Below, piece by piece: positions 15,260 through 25,027 of a DNA stretch of 50,115 nucleotides. How positions within the stretch are numbered: the stretch's first letter is position 1; each line of letters opens with the position of its first letter. The position numbers were made by a program, and so were the translations under genes. Origin of the DNA: a virus. Below the pieces are notes generated by a model. The model did not search any database. It was not told the DNA's origin and was given only the letters and a program-made list of their open reading frames with translations. The DNA is taken from positions 1-50,115 of IMG/VR virus record IMGVR_UViG_3300020420_000914. One strand, written 5' to 3'.

Positions 15260-16321
15260 TTATTTGTTGGATTGTCTAGCTCTAATCATTGCCAGAATAT
15301 CATCAGCTGAACCACTATTACTAGTTGCCGGAGCGGCTTGAGTAGTTTGTGCTACTACTGGCTCTGGTGTTGCTGGTGCTGACTCAACTGCGACAGTAGG
15401 TTGTGCTACTGCTGGTTGTTGAGGTTGCGGTGCAACAGTTGGTTCTGGTGTAGGTGCTACTGTTGAAGCAACAGTACTTGCTACATTTGATGCTGTCGAT
15501 TTCTGTGCTGATCCACTTGATGCTCCTGCACCACTAAAACCTGTTGGTTTATAGTATTGTGCAAAACGATCTGGATCATAAAGCTCTCCATCAACTGATG
15601 CTTTAAAGAGTTCTTGCATGATAGCAACTTCATCAGATGAAGGTTTCTTCGGCATATAGTCGCCAAGATTATGTAATCCAAACTTGTCAATAGCACTTCT
15701 CTCAGTTTCTGAAAGACTTCTTGCCTTGAATGACCATGTTGATGTTGAGTAATCAGCATAACCACCTTTTTGAGTTTTGGTTAATTTGAAATCTCTACCA
15801 TTTTCATTGTCAGTTGGAAGATCTTCCATATCTGGATTCATCAATGCTGACCTAATAATATTGAATATTGACGGATTAATTACAAAACGTCTAATTGGAT
15901 TTTCTGGAACTGTATCTTCGTCCAGAGTAGAGTTTACAACAAAACCTTGGAAAATGTATGAACGTTTCTTCCAATATTTTCTACCCATATCTTCTAAACT
16001 TGGATCTTTAAACCAAGTTCTTACTTCAGATAAGATAGGACATGGTTCATTAAACATTTCCATACAAGGAATTTGAACCAATGTTGGTTTTGTATCTTGA
16101 GCACCTTTAATACCAGGAAATGGTAATTTAATCATTGCTCTTTCTTGCCAGAAGAAAGTGTTATTTGAATCACCATCTGGTAAGAATCTAAGTGTTGAAG
16201 TTGTTCCTTCTGCGATATTCCAGAAAGGAAAGATTGCATTGTCTGATGCAAGACCTGAGCTGTTTGAAGTTTTCTTTTCTTGTTCTGCCAGCTTGGCCCT
16301 AATTTCTGCTAATGTTGCCAT
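15260..16321 (-). CDS. 32: Single-stranded DNA-binding protein (T4 gp32)
   Basis: gp32 coats single-stranded DNA in replication and recombination. This 353-residue protein (T4: 301) starts with the basic helix MATLAEIRAKLAEQEKK typical of marine gp32. It continues with the OB-fold region (WNIAEGTTSTLRFLPDG) and the zinc-loop region around VQIPCMEMFNEPCPI. Residues about 265-335 are a low-complexity Ala/Pro/Thr/Val/Gln linker, and the tail ends ADDILAMIRARQSNK instead of a strongly acidic end. AGGAGG lies 8 nt before the ATG inside a repeat array in the leader, which suggests autoregulation. Confidence 0.93.
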   Translation of the reverse strand: MATLAEIRAKLAEQEKKTSNSSGLASDNAIFPFWNIAEGTTSTLRFLPDGDSNNTFFWQERAMIKLPFPGIKGAQDTKPTLVQIPCMEMFNEPCPILSEVRTWFKDPSLEDMGRKYWKKRSYIFQGFVVNSTLDEDTVPENPIRRFVINPSIFNIIRSALMNPDMEDLPTDNENGRDFKLTKTQKGGYADYSTSTWSFKARSLSETERSAIDKFGLHNLGDYMPKKPSSDEVAIMQELFKASVDGELYDPDRFAQYYKPTGFSGAGASSGSAQKSTASNVASTVASTVAPTPEPTVAPQPQQPAVAQPTVAVESAPATPEPVVAQTTQAAPATSNSGSADDILAMIRARQSNK

Positions 16322-16459: not shown

Positions 16460-16600
16460 CTAATCAAGTATTTTCACCAATATAATCACCTGGATTATTA
16501 GAACAGCTAAAGGTAGTATTGTCCTAATTAGTTCCATTGTATGATTGTATTCATCCAATTTTCTTTCAAGCCAGTTTCTTTTGTATTTCTTTTTTGCCAT
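16460..16600 (-). CDS. 46-residue single-pass membrane peptide of the B12 cassette
   Basis: A small gene 3 nt downstream of the BtuB-like stop. It encodes a lysine/arginine-rich cytoplasmic N-terminus (MAKKKYKRNWLERKLDEYN) and one hydrophobic segment (ILPLAVLIIQVIILVKIL) ending in Asp. By the positive-inside rule the N-terminus is cytoplasmic. The ATG at 16600 directly follows the receptor gene, so it is the third cistron under the cobalamin riboswitch. It may assist the receptor or the DUF6580 transporter, or be unrelated; no family is recognised. Confidence 0.6.
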   Translation of the reverse strand: MAKKKYKRNWLERKLDEYNHTMELIRTILPLAVLIIQVIILVKILD

Positions 16601-16603
16601 AAA

Positions 16604-18520
16604 TTAAAAGTTCTTTTTGAATGTAATCATCCAATTTCTACCAGGTTGTGAATATCCATCTGGACTTTCATAACTTTCGTCAAATATGTTTTTTACACTC
16701 AAACTTATTGTATTACTATCATCTATTTTATACGTAGAATGAAAATTTGTCAACGATACAGATGGTTTTTTTATTGTAGCATAAGTGGTACTATCTATAT
16801 CTTTATGACTTCCTACATAATCCAATTCAATGATATTAGTATATTGACCTTGTGTGTGTTCTAGCCCGGTGCTGTTTATCCACTTTGGTCTTCTTGTCAG
16901 CTCAATACCATCACTGTCTTCTGCTATTGTAAATGTTGTAGCTGAATAAGTTTTTAAATTAGTAGTAAGCTGTCTTGCCATATTTAATTCTACACCATGT
17001 CTGTTTGACTTTGCAGTATCATTCACGTATGTACTTGATTGATACTTCATTGCATTGTCAAGATCTGTTGTAAAATAAACAATATCAAGACTTGTTAAAC
17101 TGTCATTGTATGACAATCCAATATCTGTTGTTGTTGCTTCTTCTGGTTTTAAATTTGGATTACCTGAGTAACCATAATTGTCAGATCCATAAAGTTCATA
17201 CAGTGTTGGTGTTTTGACTGCTGTAGAATTGTTTATTTTAAATTGTAATCCTTCTACTATAGTATATGCTGAACCAATTCTATATGTGTTGTAAGTTGAA
17301 AAATCTTTTGAATTATCATGTCTTACACCACCTGACACTATTAGTCTGTCAGATACCTGTACGTTACTGTTAACAAAGTAACCAGTTGAATGAGAACTTT
17401 TATCTACTTCAGATGAGTAATACTGACCATTGTTGTCAAACTTACCACTGTAGTCTTCATGTTCTATACCTGGTGTAATGTCAAAGTTATCAAACATAAA
17501 AGTATTTGTTCCAATGTATGTTGTACTTTCTGAATCATAGGTATCTATTTCAGTTCCGTTAGTATATGTTCTATCATATTTGTTTTTTGATATGACAAAT
17601 TTACTGTGTCCAAGATCGTTTTTAATTTTTACATCTGATTGAAAAATAGAAAATTTGTTGTTAGCTGTATAATCTAAATCATCTCCTGATCCTGAATCTA
17701 ATTCTGAATCATTTTCTTTAGTTGAATACATTATTCCAAATTCATTCAAACCGTTTTGACCAAAGCCAGTTCTTGAATTAATAGTAAAATTTTTAGCTTC
17801 AAATCCGTCATTCTCAGTTCCTTTTGCTGATGCTGATATTCCATCGCTTTCAGCACCGTCAACTGTTAAATTTACAAACGTATTTTGATCTACAAAATAT
17901 TTTCCTACATTCAAAGTTACTTTTTTAGTGCCAAAAGATCCTGCAGATACAATTATAGAATTTTCAGGTATTGGGTCAGTTTTAAAATTTATAACTCCAC
18001 CTACTGCATTAGGACCATAAAGTGTTCCATGTGATCCTTTAATAACTTCTACTGATGTTGCATGATTTAAAAAATCATTTGATATGTCATGTAATCCACC
18101 AGTTGTACTGTGATCTTTTATAGGTACACCATTAATCATAACCAAGACATGATTTGAATTTGTACCTCTCATAAAGACAGAAGTTTGTTGTCCAGTAGGA
18201 CCTGATTGTACTACATTCAGACCTGAAACTCTTTTAATTGCTTCAACTGTATCTACTGTATTTGTTTTTTGAATTGTTTTGACATCAATTACATCTGCTG
18301 TGATTGTTTTTTCTGCACGTGAACTTGGATCACGTAATACTGGAACGTATATTGTAATAACTAGAGCTCCATCTTCAGATACTCCTACATCAGGTATTTT
18401 AGATTCATCTGCGGCAGGTATGTCTGTAACAATGTCGTGTTTTGTATTTTCATTAGCATGTACTGTTGAAAACAGTAATAAAGTTGCTAATAAAATAACT
18501 TTCGATAGTTTAGTGGCCAT
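16604..18520 (-). CDS. btuB: BtuB-like TonB-dependent outer-membrane receptor
   Basis: This 638-residue protein has a signal peptide (residues 1-22, ending STVHA), a TonB-box-like segment ALVITIYV (52-59) and a plug domain with VFMRGTNSNHVLVMINGVP and EVIKGSHGTLYGPNAVGG. A 22-strand-type beta barrel ends in Phe (WMITFKKNF), the usual BAM signal. The plug sequence is closest to vitamin B12 receptors, which import cobalamin with TonB energy. It overlaps the upstream DUF6580 gene by 34 nt under a cobalamin riboswitch, which strongly supports B12 as substrate. Such receptors are bacterial; presence on a phage genome indicates transfer from a host. Confidence 0.93.
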   Translation of the reverse strand: MATKLSKVILLATLLLFSTVHANENTKHDIVTDIPAADESKIPDVGVSEDGALVITIYVPVLRDPSSRAEKTITADVIDVKTIQKTNTVDTVEAIKRVSGLNVVQSGPTGQQTSVFMRGTNSNHVLVMINGVPIKDHSTTGGLHDISNDFLNHATSVEVIKGSHGTLYGPNAVGGVINFKTDPIPENSIIVSAGSFGTKKVTLNVGKYFVDQNTFVNLTVDGAESDGISASAKGTENDGFEAKNFTINSRTGFGQNGLNEFGIMYSTKENDSELDSGSGDDLDYTANNKFSIFQSDVKIKNDLGHSKFVISKNKYDRTYTNGTEIDTYDSESTTYIGTNTFMFDNFDITPGIEHEDYSGKFDNNGQYYSSEVDKSSHSTGYFVNSNVQVSDRLIVSGGVRHDNSKDFSTYNTYRIGSAYTIVEGLQFKINNSTAVKTPTLYELYGSDNYGYSGNPNLKPEEATTTDIGLSYNDSLTSLDIVYFTTDLDNAMKYQSSTYVNDTAKSNRHGVELNMARQLTTNLKTYSATTFTIAEDSDGIELTRRPKWINSTGLEHTQGQYTNIIELDYVGSHKDIDSTTYATIKKPSVSLTNFHSTYKIDDSNTISLSVKNIFDESYESPDGYSQPGRNWMITFKKNF

Positions 18521-18996
18521 TTTTCCTTTACCTCGTATAATGTTTTAATTATTGTGCCGTAAAATAATGTTGATAAAACAGTATTTGTAAAGAAAGGAAT
18601 TGCCATGATGTAACAAGTGATTAAACCTGTTAGAGTATAGCCATAGTATCCACTTGTCCATACTCCAAAATTTGTTACTATAAAAAATAACAAACTTGAT
18701 AACAGAGACATTATCCATACGTTTACAAACTTAAACTGCTTCATAAACACATAACTCGATAGTGTAACTGCGATAAAAGAAGTATATACCCAAAACATAT
18801 AAGAATGAAATCCTATAAAGATATCAGATACAAACATTGCTAATAAAGGTATTACAACAGCCATATACCTGTCTGATGTTAGCATTGGCATAGTAACAGC
18901 CATAGCTAATATCGGCGTGAAATTAGGAGGATGAGGAATCAACCTACTAATTGCAAGTACAATAACCGTATATACAATTATTCCAAAAGTTTTCAT
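18487..18996 (-). CDS. DUF6580 membrane protein, putative B12-linked transporter component
   Basis: This 169-residue integral membrane protein has about five hydrophobic segments. The segments SRLIPHPPNFTPILAMAV, PLLAMFVSDIFIGFH, SLLFFIVTNFGVW and YIMAIPFFTNTVLSTLFYG match the DUF6580 family as I know it. These proteins look like the substrate-binding (S) components of small-molecule transporters and often accompany cobalamin riboswitches and btuB. The start codon follows immediately after a hairpin that encloses its ribosome site. Its job, moving B12 or a precursor across the inner membrane, is inference from family and riboswitch context. Confidence 0.85.
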   Translation of the reverse strand: MKTFGIIVYTVIVLAISRLIPHPPNFTPILAMAVTMPMLTSDRYMAVVIPLLAMFVSDIFIGFHSYMFWVYTSFIAVTLSSYVFMKQFKFVNVWIMSLLSSLLFFIVTNFGVWTSGYYGYTLTGLITCYIMAIPFFTNTVLSTLFYGTIIKTLYEVKEKWPLNYRKLFY

Positions 18997-19020
18997 AACA
19001 GTTCACCACGTGCCACTGTT
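18997..19020 (-). promoter_or_regulatory. Expression-platform hairpin of the B12 riboswitch
   Basis: On the minus strand AACAGT (19015-19020) pairs with ACTGTT (18997-19002), enclosing GGCACGTGGTGA, which contains the only plausible ribosome binding site. The ATG at 18996 follows at once. This hairpin could hide translation initiation when the upstream cobalamin aptamer is occupied. Confidence 0.5.
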
Positions 19021-19029
19021 AACTTTTCG

Positions 19030-19168
19030 TTGTAGAATCTAGACTTTTCCTGGCCTTTAATCCAACAGAGGACTACACTGGGTGGCATTCGGACTTAACT
19101 TTTATAGTTTTACCGTTGCAGGAACAGTTAATGATTCACACATTATTTCCCACCTCGCGTACAGCGTT
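19030..19168 (-). promoter_or_regulatory. Cobalamin (B12) riboswitch
   Basis: The minus-strand leader shows conserved cobalamin-aptamer blocks in the right order: GGTGGGAA, GTGTGAATC, CTGTTCCTGCAACGGTAA, AGTCCGAATGCCACC, and a B12-box-like AAAGGCCAGGA (19048-19055 core). Spacing between blocks is normal for the RF00174 family. It fills the gap between the 799-residue gene and DUF6580, and precedes the hairpin at 18997-19020. In bacteria this element lowers expression of B12-uptake genes when cobalamin is plentiful. Block order and context make the call firm; the exact ends are approximate. Confidence 0.92.
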
Positions 19169-19173
19169 ATTAT

Positions 19174-19181
19174 TATTTATA
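19174..19181 (-). promoter_or_regulatory. T4-type late promoter box driving the B12 riboswitch operon
   Basis: A perfect TATAAATA lies 9 nt after the stop of the 799-residue gene and just ahead of the aptamer; +1 is expected at about 19168. It places a host-type riboswitch operon under phage late transcription. Confidence 0.6.
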
Positions 19182-19189
19182 TATTATTT

Positions 19190-21589
19190 TTAGTTAGATG
19201 TCAAGCCTGCTAAATGTTTAATTCTGTCAAGCTCTTCTGTTGTATCTTCTTGCTTTTGATCTTCCATTTCATCAGCAATCTTGTTTAACCAAGTTGGCTC
19301 TGAAGGATGTCTGTCGCCATCTGATACATCTGCATATCCAATTCCATCAGCTTCCTTACGTAGCATTGCAATTATTTCTTCTTTTGATTTACCTGCATAC
19401 ATGCTCTTAGGATCTTTAATGTCGCTCATTACTGCATCTTTGTAGTCTTCGTATTCATGCATGTCAGCAAATCTTTCTGAATCTAAATCTGCCTGTGTCA
19501 TTGGATTTTCATCTAATAATTTTTGAGCCGCTTGTTTGTCCATTTTAACTGGATATGATTTACCATTAAATGTAAAATTCTTTTCGCCTTTGACTGCCGC
19601 TTGTGCCGCCGCAGTATTAAAAGCATTATCCTCTTCAACCTTACTTTCCATCATACCTAAGTCATCAAGTCTATTCATGATCCATTCTACTGGATCTCCA
19701 TCTCTAGCTTTTGCTGTGCCATATGGCATTTCGCCTGAGTCTAAATAGTAACTGTATAACTCCATGTACAATTCTGAACCACTATCTAAATCACCCATCT
19801 GTTTCATTTTAGCAACGTCTTGTGGATGTTTAGCCATAATAGCCATTACTTCGTCTTTTTCCATAGCTTCATTTACTGATTCTTGGTTGTGTTTAGGATC
19901 CATTTGTTGTAATAATTCTTCTTGATGTTTTGCTAGTTCTTCTTTGGTATCAAAAGGACCACCTGTTTGTACACCATCTTTAAATGCATAAAATTTACCA
20001 CCTTGGTGTTTTGCTGAAAGTCCGTATTTGTTCATTCCCATATCAGATTCTTGCATACCTAACATTCTTGCCGCCGCATTTAAATATGATGTCCATAATT
20101 TATGATCGCCTGTATCTTTACCGTCTTTGTTCATCATTTCAACAGCTTTGTTGTTAATTTTTTTACGTTGTTCTGGTGTATATTTTTGCATCATTTCGCC
20201 TGCTGTCATATCTTCAGATACAGTATTTGATTGTGCAACAATTGGCTCATCTGTGAATACACCAAGCATTCTGTTAAACGATTCAGTTAACTGATCAACT
20301 TCGTATATTGAATCACCACCTTTAATTTGTTTTGGCTCTTCAGCTGGCTTAGGAGATCTATCTAAATCTTTAATATTTTTTAATACGTCTTTTAAAACTG
20401 ATACATCATCTACTGTCATTTTCTCTTTATCTTCACCTGTAATTTTATCAGACATTCTAGATAAAAATACTGCTACTTCATCATCTTTTGCTCTTGCCGC
20501 CATGTCACTTAATTTGTAAGCCATCATGTTTTCTTTACTTGAAAACTGTTTAATGTTGTCTGGACTGTATTCTTTTTGAGAATCAGTTCTTGGTGATAAT
20601 TCAAAAGGACCTTTTGAAATATTTTGTGCAACTCGTTGTCTTAGTTGTGCTGTATCATTCATTTCTTCTTCATGGATTTGATGTATCATTGGTAGTAACT
20701 CCTGTATTCTTGAATCAATATTTGATACAGTGAATTTTTCTTTCATTTTATCCAGTGAATCCTGAGATACTTCAGATACTGCATTTGCAGTAAAATTATC
20801 TACGTATTCATTGTACCCTGTTGACGTTGTTAAACGTTTCATTGTCTCTCTTAATTTCTCTTGTTTTGCTAACAAAGAATTGTATATTGCTGATGCTTGT
20901 TCTAGCATATTTGGAGAACGTCTAACAATGTTAGCTACTTCACGTATTTTGCTTAATTGTTCACTAATGTTAACAATGCTTTGTCCAACTTCATCATATG
21001 GATTACCACCTGACTGTACATGACGTGTCATTGCTCTTGCACCGTTTAAATGAATAAAAGGATATTTAAATCTTTCACCATCTGAGTTTTCAATATATAA
21101 TGCTTTGATATTTCTTGATCTTGAACCAGGCACTTCTTCATTCACAGGCTTTCTGTGTTTGATAAGAAGCTTGGCTCCTTCTAAATTCTGTGAGCTGGTT
21201 TTTGTTGTTCCAGCTAATGATGTATAACTTTCTGTTGTAATGTCTTTCATAGTATTTGTATTTAACCTAAATGTGTAATTTTTGGGCTTTATTTCTCTAC
21301 CAAATTCTCTTAAATCAAAGTCTAAAAGATTATCTCTTGCTAGATTTTTCACTGATTTTATTGATTTATCAATACTTTCAACAGATTCTGGTCCTTTGTG
21401 CATCTTAATTTCTCCATTTTGTTGATCAACATTTACCATAATATTGGGAGATTTTACATAAAAAAACCTTGCTCTTGCTGGATCAGATATTTCCATGCCT
21501 TCATTACTGTCAAACATCTGTACAGAATACCCGTGCCCTTTGAGTACTTTGAACAATTTTTCAGAAACTGTGTTATAATCTACTGCCAT
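19190..21589 (-). CDS. Large conserved phage protein, probable head/virion component
   Basis: This 799-residue, highly charged protein is without a recognised enzymatic domain. It resembles a large hypothetical protein of marine T4-like phages. It has long predicted helical stretches (residues about 200-360) and acidic low-complexity regions in the middle. The C-terminus ELDRIKHLAGLTSN resembles the gp22 scaffold C-terminus here (VNIKRLAGLRS), which suggests a shared interaction during prohead assembly. A late-promoter box lies 5 nt before its ATG. A virion or assembly role is inferred from these two points. Confidence 0.65.
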   Translation of the reverse strand: MAVDYNTVSEKLFKVLKGHGYSVQMFDSNEGMEISDPARARFFYVKSPNIMVNVDQQNGEIKMHKGPESVESIDKSIKSVKNLARDNLLDFDLREFGREIKPKNYTFRLNTNTMKDITTESYTSLAGTTKTSSQNLEGAKLLIKHRKPVNEEVPGSRSRNIKALYIENSDGERFKYPFIHLNGARAMTRHVQSGGNPYDEVGQSIVNISEQLSKIREVANIVRRSPNMLEQASAIYNSLLAKQEKLRETMKRLTTSTGYNEYVDNFTANAVSEVSQDSLDKMKEKFTVSNIDSRIQELLPMIHQIHEEEMNDTAQLRQRVAQNISKGPFELSPRTDSQKEYSPDNIKQFSSKENMMAYKLSDMAARAKDDEVAVFLSRMSDKITGEDKEKMTVDDVSVLKDVLKNIKDLDRSPKPAEEPKQIKGGDSIYEVDQLTESFNRMLGVFTDEPIVAQSNTVSEDMTAGEMMQKYTPEQRKKINNKAVEMMNKDGKDTGDHKLWTSYLNAAARMLGMQESDMGMNKYGLSAKHQGGKFYAFKDGVQTGGPFDTKEELAKHQEELLQQMDPKHNQESVNEAMEKDEVMAIMAKHPQDVAKMKQMGDLDSGSELYMELYSYYLDSGEMPYGTAKARDGDPVEWIMNRLDDLGMMESKVEEDNAFNTAAAQAAVKGEKNFTFNGKSYPVKMDKQAAQKLLDENPMTQADLDSERFADMHEYEDYKDAVMSDIKDPKSMYAGKSKEEIIAMLRKEADGIGYADVSDGDRHPSEPTWLNKIADEMEDQKQEDTTEELDRIKHLAGLTSN

Positions 21590-23704: not shown

Positions 23705-25027
23705 TTATTTTTGTATTAGAAAATTATATACTGGAAATGTATTAGCAAAATTTTTATTACGTCTGCGGTCAATTTCAGCTAAAAAATCTACTGCATCTTT
23801 TCTCATTTTTTCAGCTTCAGCTTTAGTCCATGTGTTTTCAAAGAAATAGTTTTTTAATCTTTCAACGTAATTAAATTCATTGATGTCTGTTAATTCATTC
23901 TGTTTAACAAATGCATCTAGTTCTTTAAATTTGTTTGTCCAATACTCATTTTTAGGTAGATTTAACACATTCAAAAACTTAGGGCTATGCAGTATGCTAA
24001 CCCCGTATGTAACCCCCTTATAAACGTGTTTTAAGCGGTATACATCCTTCATAAAGCTCAACATAGTGTCAATGCTTAACATATTAGCAGTCACCATTAT
24101 ATGCAAGGATATGCCGGATCTACGCACCATTTCACAGTGTGTTAGCCAATTATCATAATGCATTCCTTCTCTGATATACTCTGCCTGATCTCCAAATGCA
24201 TCGCAACTGGTATGTATCAATATATCTTTTACACAACCTTCTTTTTTCAACTTTTTTAAATGATTTAATGCTTTAATAATAGTTTCTGTTGCTACTGAAA
24301 GATTGGTATTGATTTCCAATGTGAGGTGTGGTTGTGGATCATGTTCTAGATCATCCAACAACTTGAAAGTGTTTTTATTCAGCAAAGGTTCTCCGCCGGT
24401 TATTCTCAAAGTTTTCAATTCAATTTTTAATTCAGGCCACCATTTCCACCATGCATCAACATAAGGATTTTCTTCACGATTAAGATAAGGTGTTCTATCT
24501 GTTTCAGCAATCCATTCAAGATTATTGTAGTTGTCTTGTGTTGGATAAGAACCATGATTTTTAACTTCGCTCCACCATTCACTGCTGAACACTGGTGAAC
24601 AGTAAACACATTTCATATTACAAACATTACCAAAGCTAACTTCAACCTGTGCCGGTTGTATGTTGTCTTGCCATTTAGATTTTGACACTTGATCAAAGTA
24701 AGGCATGGCCCAGGTACTGTTACTGCTTTTTTTAATTCTGTCGCTGTAATGTGAACCTTCTGTATCTTCTACACTCCAACAGTAATTACATTCTTTTGGT
24801 CTTTCTCCGTCAAGCATTTGCTTACGAATAAGTTTTTTATAGCTGGTGTTGTGTAATGCTGAAGGATTGTATTCTAATTCATCAATAGGTATTTTGTGTG
24901 TTTGCGGATGGTGACAACTGTGAGTGTGGCCATTCTGTAAATGAATTGTAACTTGTTGCCACTTTGCTAAACAGAAAGTAGGTGAGATCGTGTCTAACTT
25001 TTGTTTTGTTTCATCAAGTTTGCTCAT
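23705..25027 (-). CDS. Radical SAM protein with twitch/SPASM-like architecture
   Basis: This 440-residue protein has the radical SAM cluster motif Cys-x3-Cys-x2-Cys in NVCNMKCVYCSP, followed by RITGGEPLL, the SAM-binding GGE motif. Extra cysteines occur N-terminal to the core (FCLAKW, HSCHHP, ECNYCW), consistent with an auxiliary iron-sulfur cluster as in twitch/SPASM proteins. Such enzymes make a 5'-deoxyadenosyl radical and often modify peptides. Similar proteins occur in marine phages with unknown targets. It lies between the frameshifted gene pair and the terminase block, so modification of a virion protein is one possibility, not shown. Confidence 0.88.
   Translation of the reverse strand: MSKLDETKQKLDTISPTFCLAKWQQVTIHLQNGHTHSCHHPQTHKIPIDELEYNPSALHNTSYKKLIRKQMLDGERPKECNYCWSVEDTEGSHYSDRIKKSSNSTWAMPYFDQVSKSKWQDNIQPAQVEVSFGNVCNMKCVYCSPVFSSEWWSEVKNHGSYPTQDNYNNLEWIAETDRTPYLNREENPYVDAWWKWWPELKIELKTLRITGGEPLLNKNTFKLLDDLEHDPQPHLTLEINTNLSVATETIIKALNHLKKLKKEGCVKDILIHTSCDAFGDQAEYIREGMHYDNWLTHCEMVRRSGISLHIMVTANMLSIDTMLSFMKDVYRLKHVYKGVTYGVSILHSPKFLNVLNLPKNEYWTNKFKELDAFVKQNELTDINEFNYVERLKNYFFENTWTKAEAEKMRKDAVDFLAEIDRRRNKNFANTFPVYNFLIQK

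Follow-up and report, generated by a model that had tools for sequence, protein, structure and literature searches.

Large parts of the surface ocean hold little vitamin B12 (cobalamin), a cofactor that many marine bacteria have to obtain by import. The described systems closest to the locus reported here come from both cells and phages. On the cellular side, the structure with Protein Data Bank (PDB) identifier 6FNP is that of ECF-CbrT, a cobalamin transporter of the energy-coupling factor (ECF) type (PMC5997447), and BtuM, a solitary S-component-like B12 transporter found next to btuB, needs no ECF module (PMC6072759). At the level of RNA, the env8 B12 riboswitch represses translation upon binding its ligand (PMC10907184). 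Here we analyze a locus in the IMG/VR virus record IMGVR_UViG_3300020420_000914 (positions 1 to 50,115; this whole stretch of 50,115 nucleotides [nt] is hereafter called the window), in which a cobalamin riboswitch precedes genes for a DUF6580 membrane protein and a BtuB-like TonB-dependent receptor. We consider it likely that this is a phage-borne B12 uptake operon, active in infection and down-regulated when B12 is sufficient.

Parts of this arrangement have precedents in phages. The methylophage Melnitz and its relatives carry a glutamine riboswitch (PMC9004378), which, like the leader in the window, is a metabolite-sensing RNA in a marine T4-like phage; it differs in ligand class and is tied to a transfer-messenger RNA gene rather than to a transporter operon. 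The pelagiphage Polarivirus skadi likewise has an annotated TonB-dependent receptor gene, reported without B12, a riboswitch, or DUF6580 (PMC10504331). The literature that we searched, which left preprints and most subscription journals outside, contains no description of a phage B12 uptake cassette and no mention of DUF6580. As far as that literature shows, the combination of riboswitch, DUF6580, and btuB is new in phages.

The closest cellular counterpart is found in SAR11. In 10 Pelagibacteraceae (SAR11) genomes, a match to the adenosylcobalamin riboswitch family AdoCbl-II (RF01689, 84-98 bits) lies just 5' of btuB, which is followed by DUF6580. The two units share the AdoCbl-II leader with its 3' module and both protein families. 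They differ in gene order, SAR11 having btuB first and the window DUF6580 first, and their receptors fall into separate sister clades. In the SAR11 genome G068, the riboswitch, btuB, DUF6580, and a gene for a B12-binding radical S-adenosylmethionine (SAM) enzyme are separated by gaps of a few bases only.

Organization of the locus and a model for its function

The features of the locus, all on the minus strand, are as follows.

19176..19204 (-): sigma-70-type promoter; TTGACA at 19199-19204, 17-nt spacer, TATAAA at 19176-19181
19075..19167 (-): AdoCbl-II cobalamin riboswitch aptamer (RF01689, 71.7 bits); L5 loop UCCU at 19120-19123
19013..19074 (-): leader 3' module; closing helix of CCUCUGUU (19064-19071) with AACAGUGG (19013-19020)
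19048-19051 (-): L13-like AGGA within the leader 3' module
18997..19020 (-): possible start-site hairpin AACAGT/ACTGTT, immediately 5' of the ATG, found by reading the window and the viral leaders
18487..18996 (-): DUF6580 six-helix membrane protein of 169 residues (PF20221), candidate inner-membrane cobalamin carrier
16604..18520 (-): BtuB-like TonB-dependent receptor of 638 residues, identified by family models (Pfam, NCBIfam), by PDB matches in sequence and in structure, and by tree position
16460..16600 (-): open reading frame (ORF) for a 46-residue membrane peptide, no family match
19190..21589 (-): upstream flank, large virion structural protein (phrog_13484)
15260..16321 (-): downstream flank, gp32 single-strand DNA binding protein (phrog_1192)

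In the model that we favor, a host-type promoter would transcribe the operon during infection, and the leader of the mRNA would sense cobalamin. When cobalamin is scarce, both genes would be translated. The BtuB-like receptor would then bring cobalamin across the outer membrane, powered through the host TonB system, and the DUF6580 protein would carry it across the inner membrane in the manner of BtuM or an ECF S-component. With enough cobalamin, the L5 loop of the bound aptamer would dock on the leader 3' module, which would shut translation off. The imported cofactor may serve phage B12-binding radical SAM enzymes or, in phages that lack them, enzymes of the host. The first-pass annotation of this DNA had also read the locus as a B12 import unit; the riboswitch, the modeled structure of the receptor, the modeled S-component-like fold of DUF6580, and the SAR11 operon support that reading, and the client it suggested, a class II ribonucleotide reductase (RNR), is not supported (see below).

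Promoter and riboswitch leader

The riboswitch begins 8 nt past the TTGACA-17-TATAAA promoter. The promoter matches 11 of the 12 consensus bases, a result equaled by none of 300 shuffles, and its -35 box falls within the 3' end of the upstream gene. Each of the 11 viral riboswitches examined has a TTGAC-type promoter ahead of it. The aptamer match covers model positions 1-81 of 81 (E 5.7e-16) and lies well above the gathering threshold of 36.5 bits, so that a cobalamin riboswitch does stand ahead of the genes, as had been proposed; it belongs not to the family then named (RF00174) but to RF01689, of clan CL00101.

Beyond the Rfam model, the leader continues into a 3' module common to 8 other viral and 10 SAR11 leaders, and phage and SAR11 leaders match over approximately 160 nt with this module included. 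Across 19 leaders, 92.7% of cells in the proposed structure are paired, versus 82.8% in shuffles, and the covariation score (0.307 versus 0.125) exceeds that of all 500 shuffles, which do not preserve the relatedness of the sequences. Changes on both sides occur in 11 of the 33 pairs; the number of pairs with double changes was reached by 123 of the 500 shuffles and is thus not above them. Pairing falls to 28-51% when partners are slid by 1-3 columns. A putative L5-L13 kissing interaction comprises two invariant C-G pairs, one pair that changes from U-A to A-U, and a fourth position that is mostly unpaired.

How binding might be coupled to expression is suggested by the start site. AACAGT has two possible partners in most phage leaders of this type, one upstream and the other ACTGTT at the ATG, alternatives that would give a translational switch; a start-site hairpin may compete with the closing helix. 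By analogy with known B12 riboswitches such as env8, ligand binding would be expected to repress. As another switch we considered the linker GTGGC pairing with the P3 strand of the aptamer, an idea dropped by eye since the linker is unchanged where P3 varies. A second type of AdoCbl-II leader lies directly 5' of btuB at two other loci (L250:1501-1581 and L253:1501-1581), with a Shine-Dalgarno-like AAGGAG downstream. This type appears to be close to the crystallized env8 riboswitch.

The BtuB-like receptor

Both parts of a TonB-dependent receptor score above their Pfam cut-offs (plug PF07715, 75.6 bits; barrel PF00593, 119.7 bits). The best NCBIfam model is that of the B12 receptor, TIGR01779 (214 bits, short of its cut-off), with siderophore and heme models reaching at most 103. 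The signal peptide, plug, and terminal Phe named by the first-pass annotation are all present, and the TonB box takes the form of a TonB-box-like stretch, ALVITIYV (TLVVTIYV in the closest relative, L001). Viral receptors generally retain the signal peptide and this stretch, as judged by eye. An AlphaFold2 model of the receptor has a mean predicted local distance difference test score (pLDDT) of 86, with residues 18-63 below 50. E. coli BtuB accounts for every one of the 12 best PDB structure matches of this model (E 1.6e-43 to 2.2e-38; target template modeling [TM] score up to 0.91), ahead of other TonB receptors, which start at 8e-35; among predicted viral structures, the same query matched only one clear TonB-dependent receptor. 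E. coli BtuB, the best PDB match by sequence as well as by structure, shares the plug, barrel, TonB-box-like stretch, and terminal Phe with the window receptor, from which it differs in sequence (approximately 23% identity). Cobalamin uptake through the outer membrane is therefore the function we predict for this protein from homology and its modeled structure.

Phylogeny places the receptor with those of SAR11. In trees of 86 and 91 receptors, both quick searches without bootstrap, viral receptors form one clade (Shimodaira-Hasegawa-like approximate likelihood ratio test support 99 and 98), apart from a few distant viral receptors that fall outside it. The sister of this clade consists of 12-13 SAR11-type receptors (support 98 and 99), and the grouping is unchanged when 24 other alphaproteobacterial receptors are added. 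On the receptors sampled, the viral sequences are thus a separate clade with deep branches, sister to SAR11; bacterial sampling was steered by DUF6580 and by a profile of viral sequences, and a closer cellular relative may be missed. FepA and CirA fall outside the grouping of the viral receptors with SAR11 receptors whose genes lie behind AdoCbl-II riboswitches, and a siderophore receptor is rejected by both structure matches and trees. Nested within the viral clade is the receptor of a Rhodobiaceae metagenome-assembled genome (MAG; L268:1498-3258), on a contig whose genes look bacterial. It possibly reflects virus-to-cell transfer.

TonB-dependent receptors, BtuB among them, are well-known receptors of phages and colicins. 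The phage protein could accordingly act as a decoy, or exclude or attract phages or colicin-like proteins, with B12 incidental. The BtuB-colicin E3 complex 1ujw is indeed among the structure matches of the receptor model, and among the matches listed 29 distinct viral loci have the receptor without DUF6580. Altered adsorption, on the other hand, leaves the cobalamin riboswitch, the co-transcribed DUF6580 gene, and the matching cellular operon unexplained, and the plug and TonB-box-like stretch are retained. We regard it as improbable, and the suggestion that the receptor alters adsorption by competing phages found no support here.

DUF6580 as a candidate inner-membrane carrier

The membrane protein ahead of the receptor was correctly recognized as DUF6580, scoring 147.6 bits against PF20221 (gathering cut-off 27). 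Its structure model (pLDDT 94.6) is largely helical with approximately six membrane helices, and the listed Foldseek matches with a query TM score of at least 0.5 are all ECF S-components (ThiT, FolT, PanT, and ECF complexes). The one match of the DUF6580 profile among PDB sequences, a weak one, is to a chain of 6FNP, the ECF-CbrT entry. An hhalign comparison with a known B12 S-component gave a probability of 60 over a fragment only. CbrT and BtuM resemble the protein in being small six-helix membrane proteins with an S-component-like fold (for DUF6580, by model) and differ from it in having no significant sequence similarity. A near-invariant Cys128 of DUF6580 is absent from the Rhodobiaceae protein, so that a BtuM-like cysteine ligand is not universal in the family. 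Together with its position beside btuB, the modeled fold makes DUF6580 a candidate inner-membrane cobalamin carrier, and a family of unknown function thereby gains a testable role in SAR11 and in phages.

The substrate could also be another cobalt-containing or tetrapyrrole compound, such as cobinamide, another cobamide, or a B12 breakdown product, instead of cobalamin itself. CbrT binds cobinamide besides cobalamin (PMC5997447), several corrinoids are reported to act on cobalamin riboswitches (PMC9600662), and the ligand is not readable from sequence. Nothing specific speaks against such a substrate, which would refine the assignment to B12 import rather than oppose it; we think it unlikely.

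Recurrence among marine phages

Profile searches recovered at least 79 viral DUF6580 loci and at least 80 viral receptor loci. With duplicates removed, the matches listed contain 102 distinct viral loci, of which 39 have both genes; in all 39, the genes are adjacent and on the same strand, DUF6580 coming first in 28 and btuB in 11. Of 50 viral records tested for RF01689, 16 scored above the cut-off. Divergent marine phage lineages thus carry, as a set, a sensor, an outer-membrane receptor, and a candidate inner-membrane carrier. Because the same gene set recurs in many other marine phages, B12 supply seems to be under viral control, and whether infected cells raise B12 uptake becomes directly testable.

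The first-pass annotation considered such a unit unusual within a T4-like genome. This is so for phage isolates, in whose records DUF6580 had no match and the receptor only distant ones (the best in records with bacterial names and a 16S rRNA gene), but not for uncultured marine phages, where the cassette is recurrent. A T4-type major head protein turned up in 17 of 35 of these viral records, against none among 14 control genomes. Some DUF6580 genes stand without a nearby receptor, as at L030:5962-6468, directly behind a clamp-loader-like gene, and also at L022, L037, and L054. Three matches on MAG contigs, L161 and L162 (Neomarinimicrobiota) and L169 (Pacearchaeota), have statistics equal to those of viral L042/L043 and L052/L077, and these contigs are probably misbinned phage for that reason.

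The order terminase - large structural gene - DUF6580 - btuB - gp32 - uvsX recurs in L001, L011, L340-L342, L350, L359, and L370. Since these are independent contigs, a chimera at the cassette is argued against, and the window contig is probably not one. At 80 gp32 loci, cassette genes were present in 17 and absent from 36, with 27 too short upstream to tell. L347 has the structural gene and gp32 side by side. At L335:859-7860, the same site holds approximately 7 kb of other genes, named by reading as two desaturase-like, several oxygenase-like, and one peroxiredoxin-like gene. The gap separating the structural gene from gp32 is a cargo site, of which the B12 cassette is one occupant. Host-type genes whose presence varies among close relatives at one site are what is expected of a phage auxiliary metabolic cassette.

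That same presence and absence would also fit a cassette picked up in passing from a SAR11-like host and of little function to the phage. Against this stand the separate viral receptor clade with its deep branches, intact reading frames in dozens of records, and the promoters and conserved leader pairing described above, which together point to long-term selection. We consider passing cargo very improbable.

Candidate client enzymes

A class II RNR had been put forward as the enzyme that uses the imported B12, and we reject it. NrdJ has no match in the window. Matches to NrdJ_Z occur in 12 of 35 records, every one below cut-off, and all 8 RNRs typed from related phages exceed the cut-off of TIGR02506, the class I alpha-subunit model, but fall short of that of NrdJ_Z. 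At L255, an NrdB-like ORF lies 3' of NrdA. The other client named earlier, MetH, was not searched for by name, and no B12-binding domain was found in the window. A radical SAM gene without a B12-binding domain lies at window positions 23705-25027, approximately 5 kb from the cassette.

B12-binding radical SAM enzymes are better candidates. Of 29 phage records that carry DUF6580 or the cassette, 10 have B12-binding domains scoring over cut-off, and the 4 phage and 5 SAR11 proteins typed by Pfam all fuse a B12-binding to a radical SAM domain. Such enzymes are encoded at L430-L433, in phages of this set. In phage G042, a divergent gene for a putative enzyme of this kind (L325:6825-8351, 508 residues) starts 48 nt from DUF6580; its product matches PF02310 below cut-off and has a CxxxCxxC motif seen by eye. 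Among phage isolates, B12-binding radical SAM proteins were found in only 3 and 2 distant records. We entertain, tentatively, the further possibility that a virus-specific lineage of B12 uptake operons feeds these phage radical SAM enzymes and that the Rhodobiaceae MAG took its receptor back from viruses.

Evidence bearing against B12 import

Several results weigh against the B12 import model. The receptor score lies below the TIGR01779 cut-off of 599.7, for which reason we name the protein BtuB-like and do not file it as a TIGR01779 equivalog. The Foldseek E-values of DUF6580 are weak, none being 0.001 or lower, and its profile has a single, weak match among PDB sequences (E 0.061), to 6fnp_A, a chain that by its length and label would be CbrT itself. 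Folded thermodynamically by itself, the window leader does not outperform shuffled sequences (z -0.79), a measure that we set aside as not informative for a single leader. Single-gene loci are common among the matches listed, with 34 having DUF6580 only in addition to those with the receptor only; some are explained by contig ends or by a distant receptor. The 242-kb relative G016 lacks, as does the window, any detected B12-binding domain. Finally, B12-binding hits over cut-off number 11 in 3.30 Mb of cassette-type phages and 0 in a 0.67-Mb control of 26 cassette-free relatives, where approximately 2.2 would be expected, so that with this small control the difference is not significant.

Genomic context of the window

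The DUF6580 and btuB ORFs overlap by 34 nt, in keeping with the overlapping operon first described. The 46-residue ORF, included in that description, does not overlap: it starts 3 nt past the btuB stop. It has no homologue in L001 and, among all loci compared, a single one (L030:2075-2203, 70% over 43 residues), which is not beside a btuB and lies in a record whose DUF6580 is 3.7 kb off. Not being conserved, and absent beside btuB in relatives, the peptide was dropped as a cassette part and probably does not belong to the operon.

Phage genes flank the locus, terminase and the structural gene at one end, gp32 and a gene for a RecA/UvsX-type protein at the opposite end, which agrees with the placement between a large phage gene and gp32 given by the first-pass annotation. 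Elsewhere in the window are helicases, tail sheath, capsid, portal, and ThyX. The leader RNA is of SAR11 type, although the phage is not firmly placed among the pelagiphages: judged by capsid and gp32, its nearest isolates are jumbo T4-like phages (Sinorhizobium phage Phosso, the PA5oct group, and Agrobacterium phage Atu_ph07). Given these relatives, the window probably represents one piece of a large genome.

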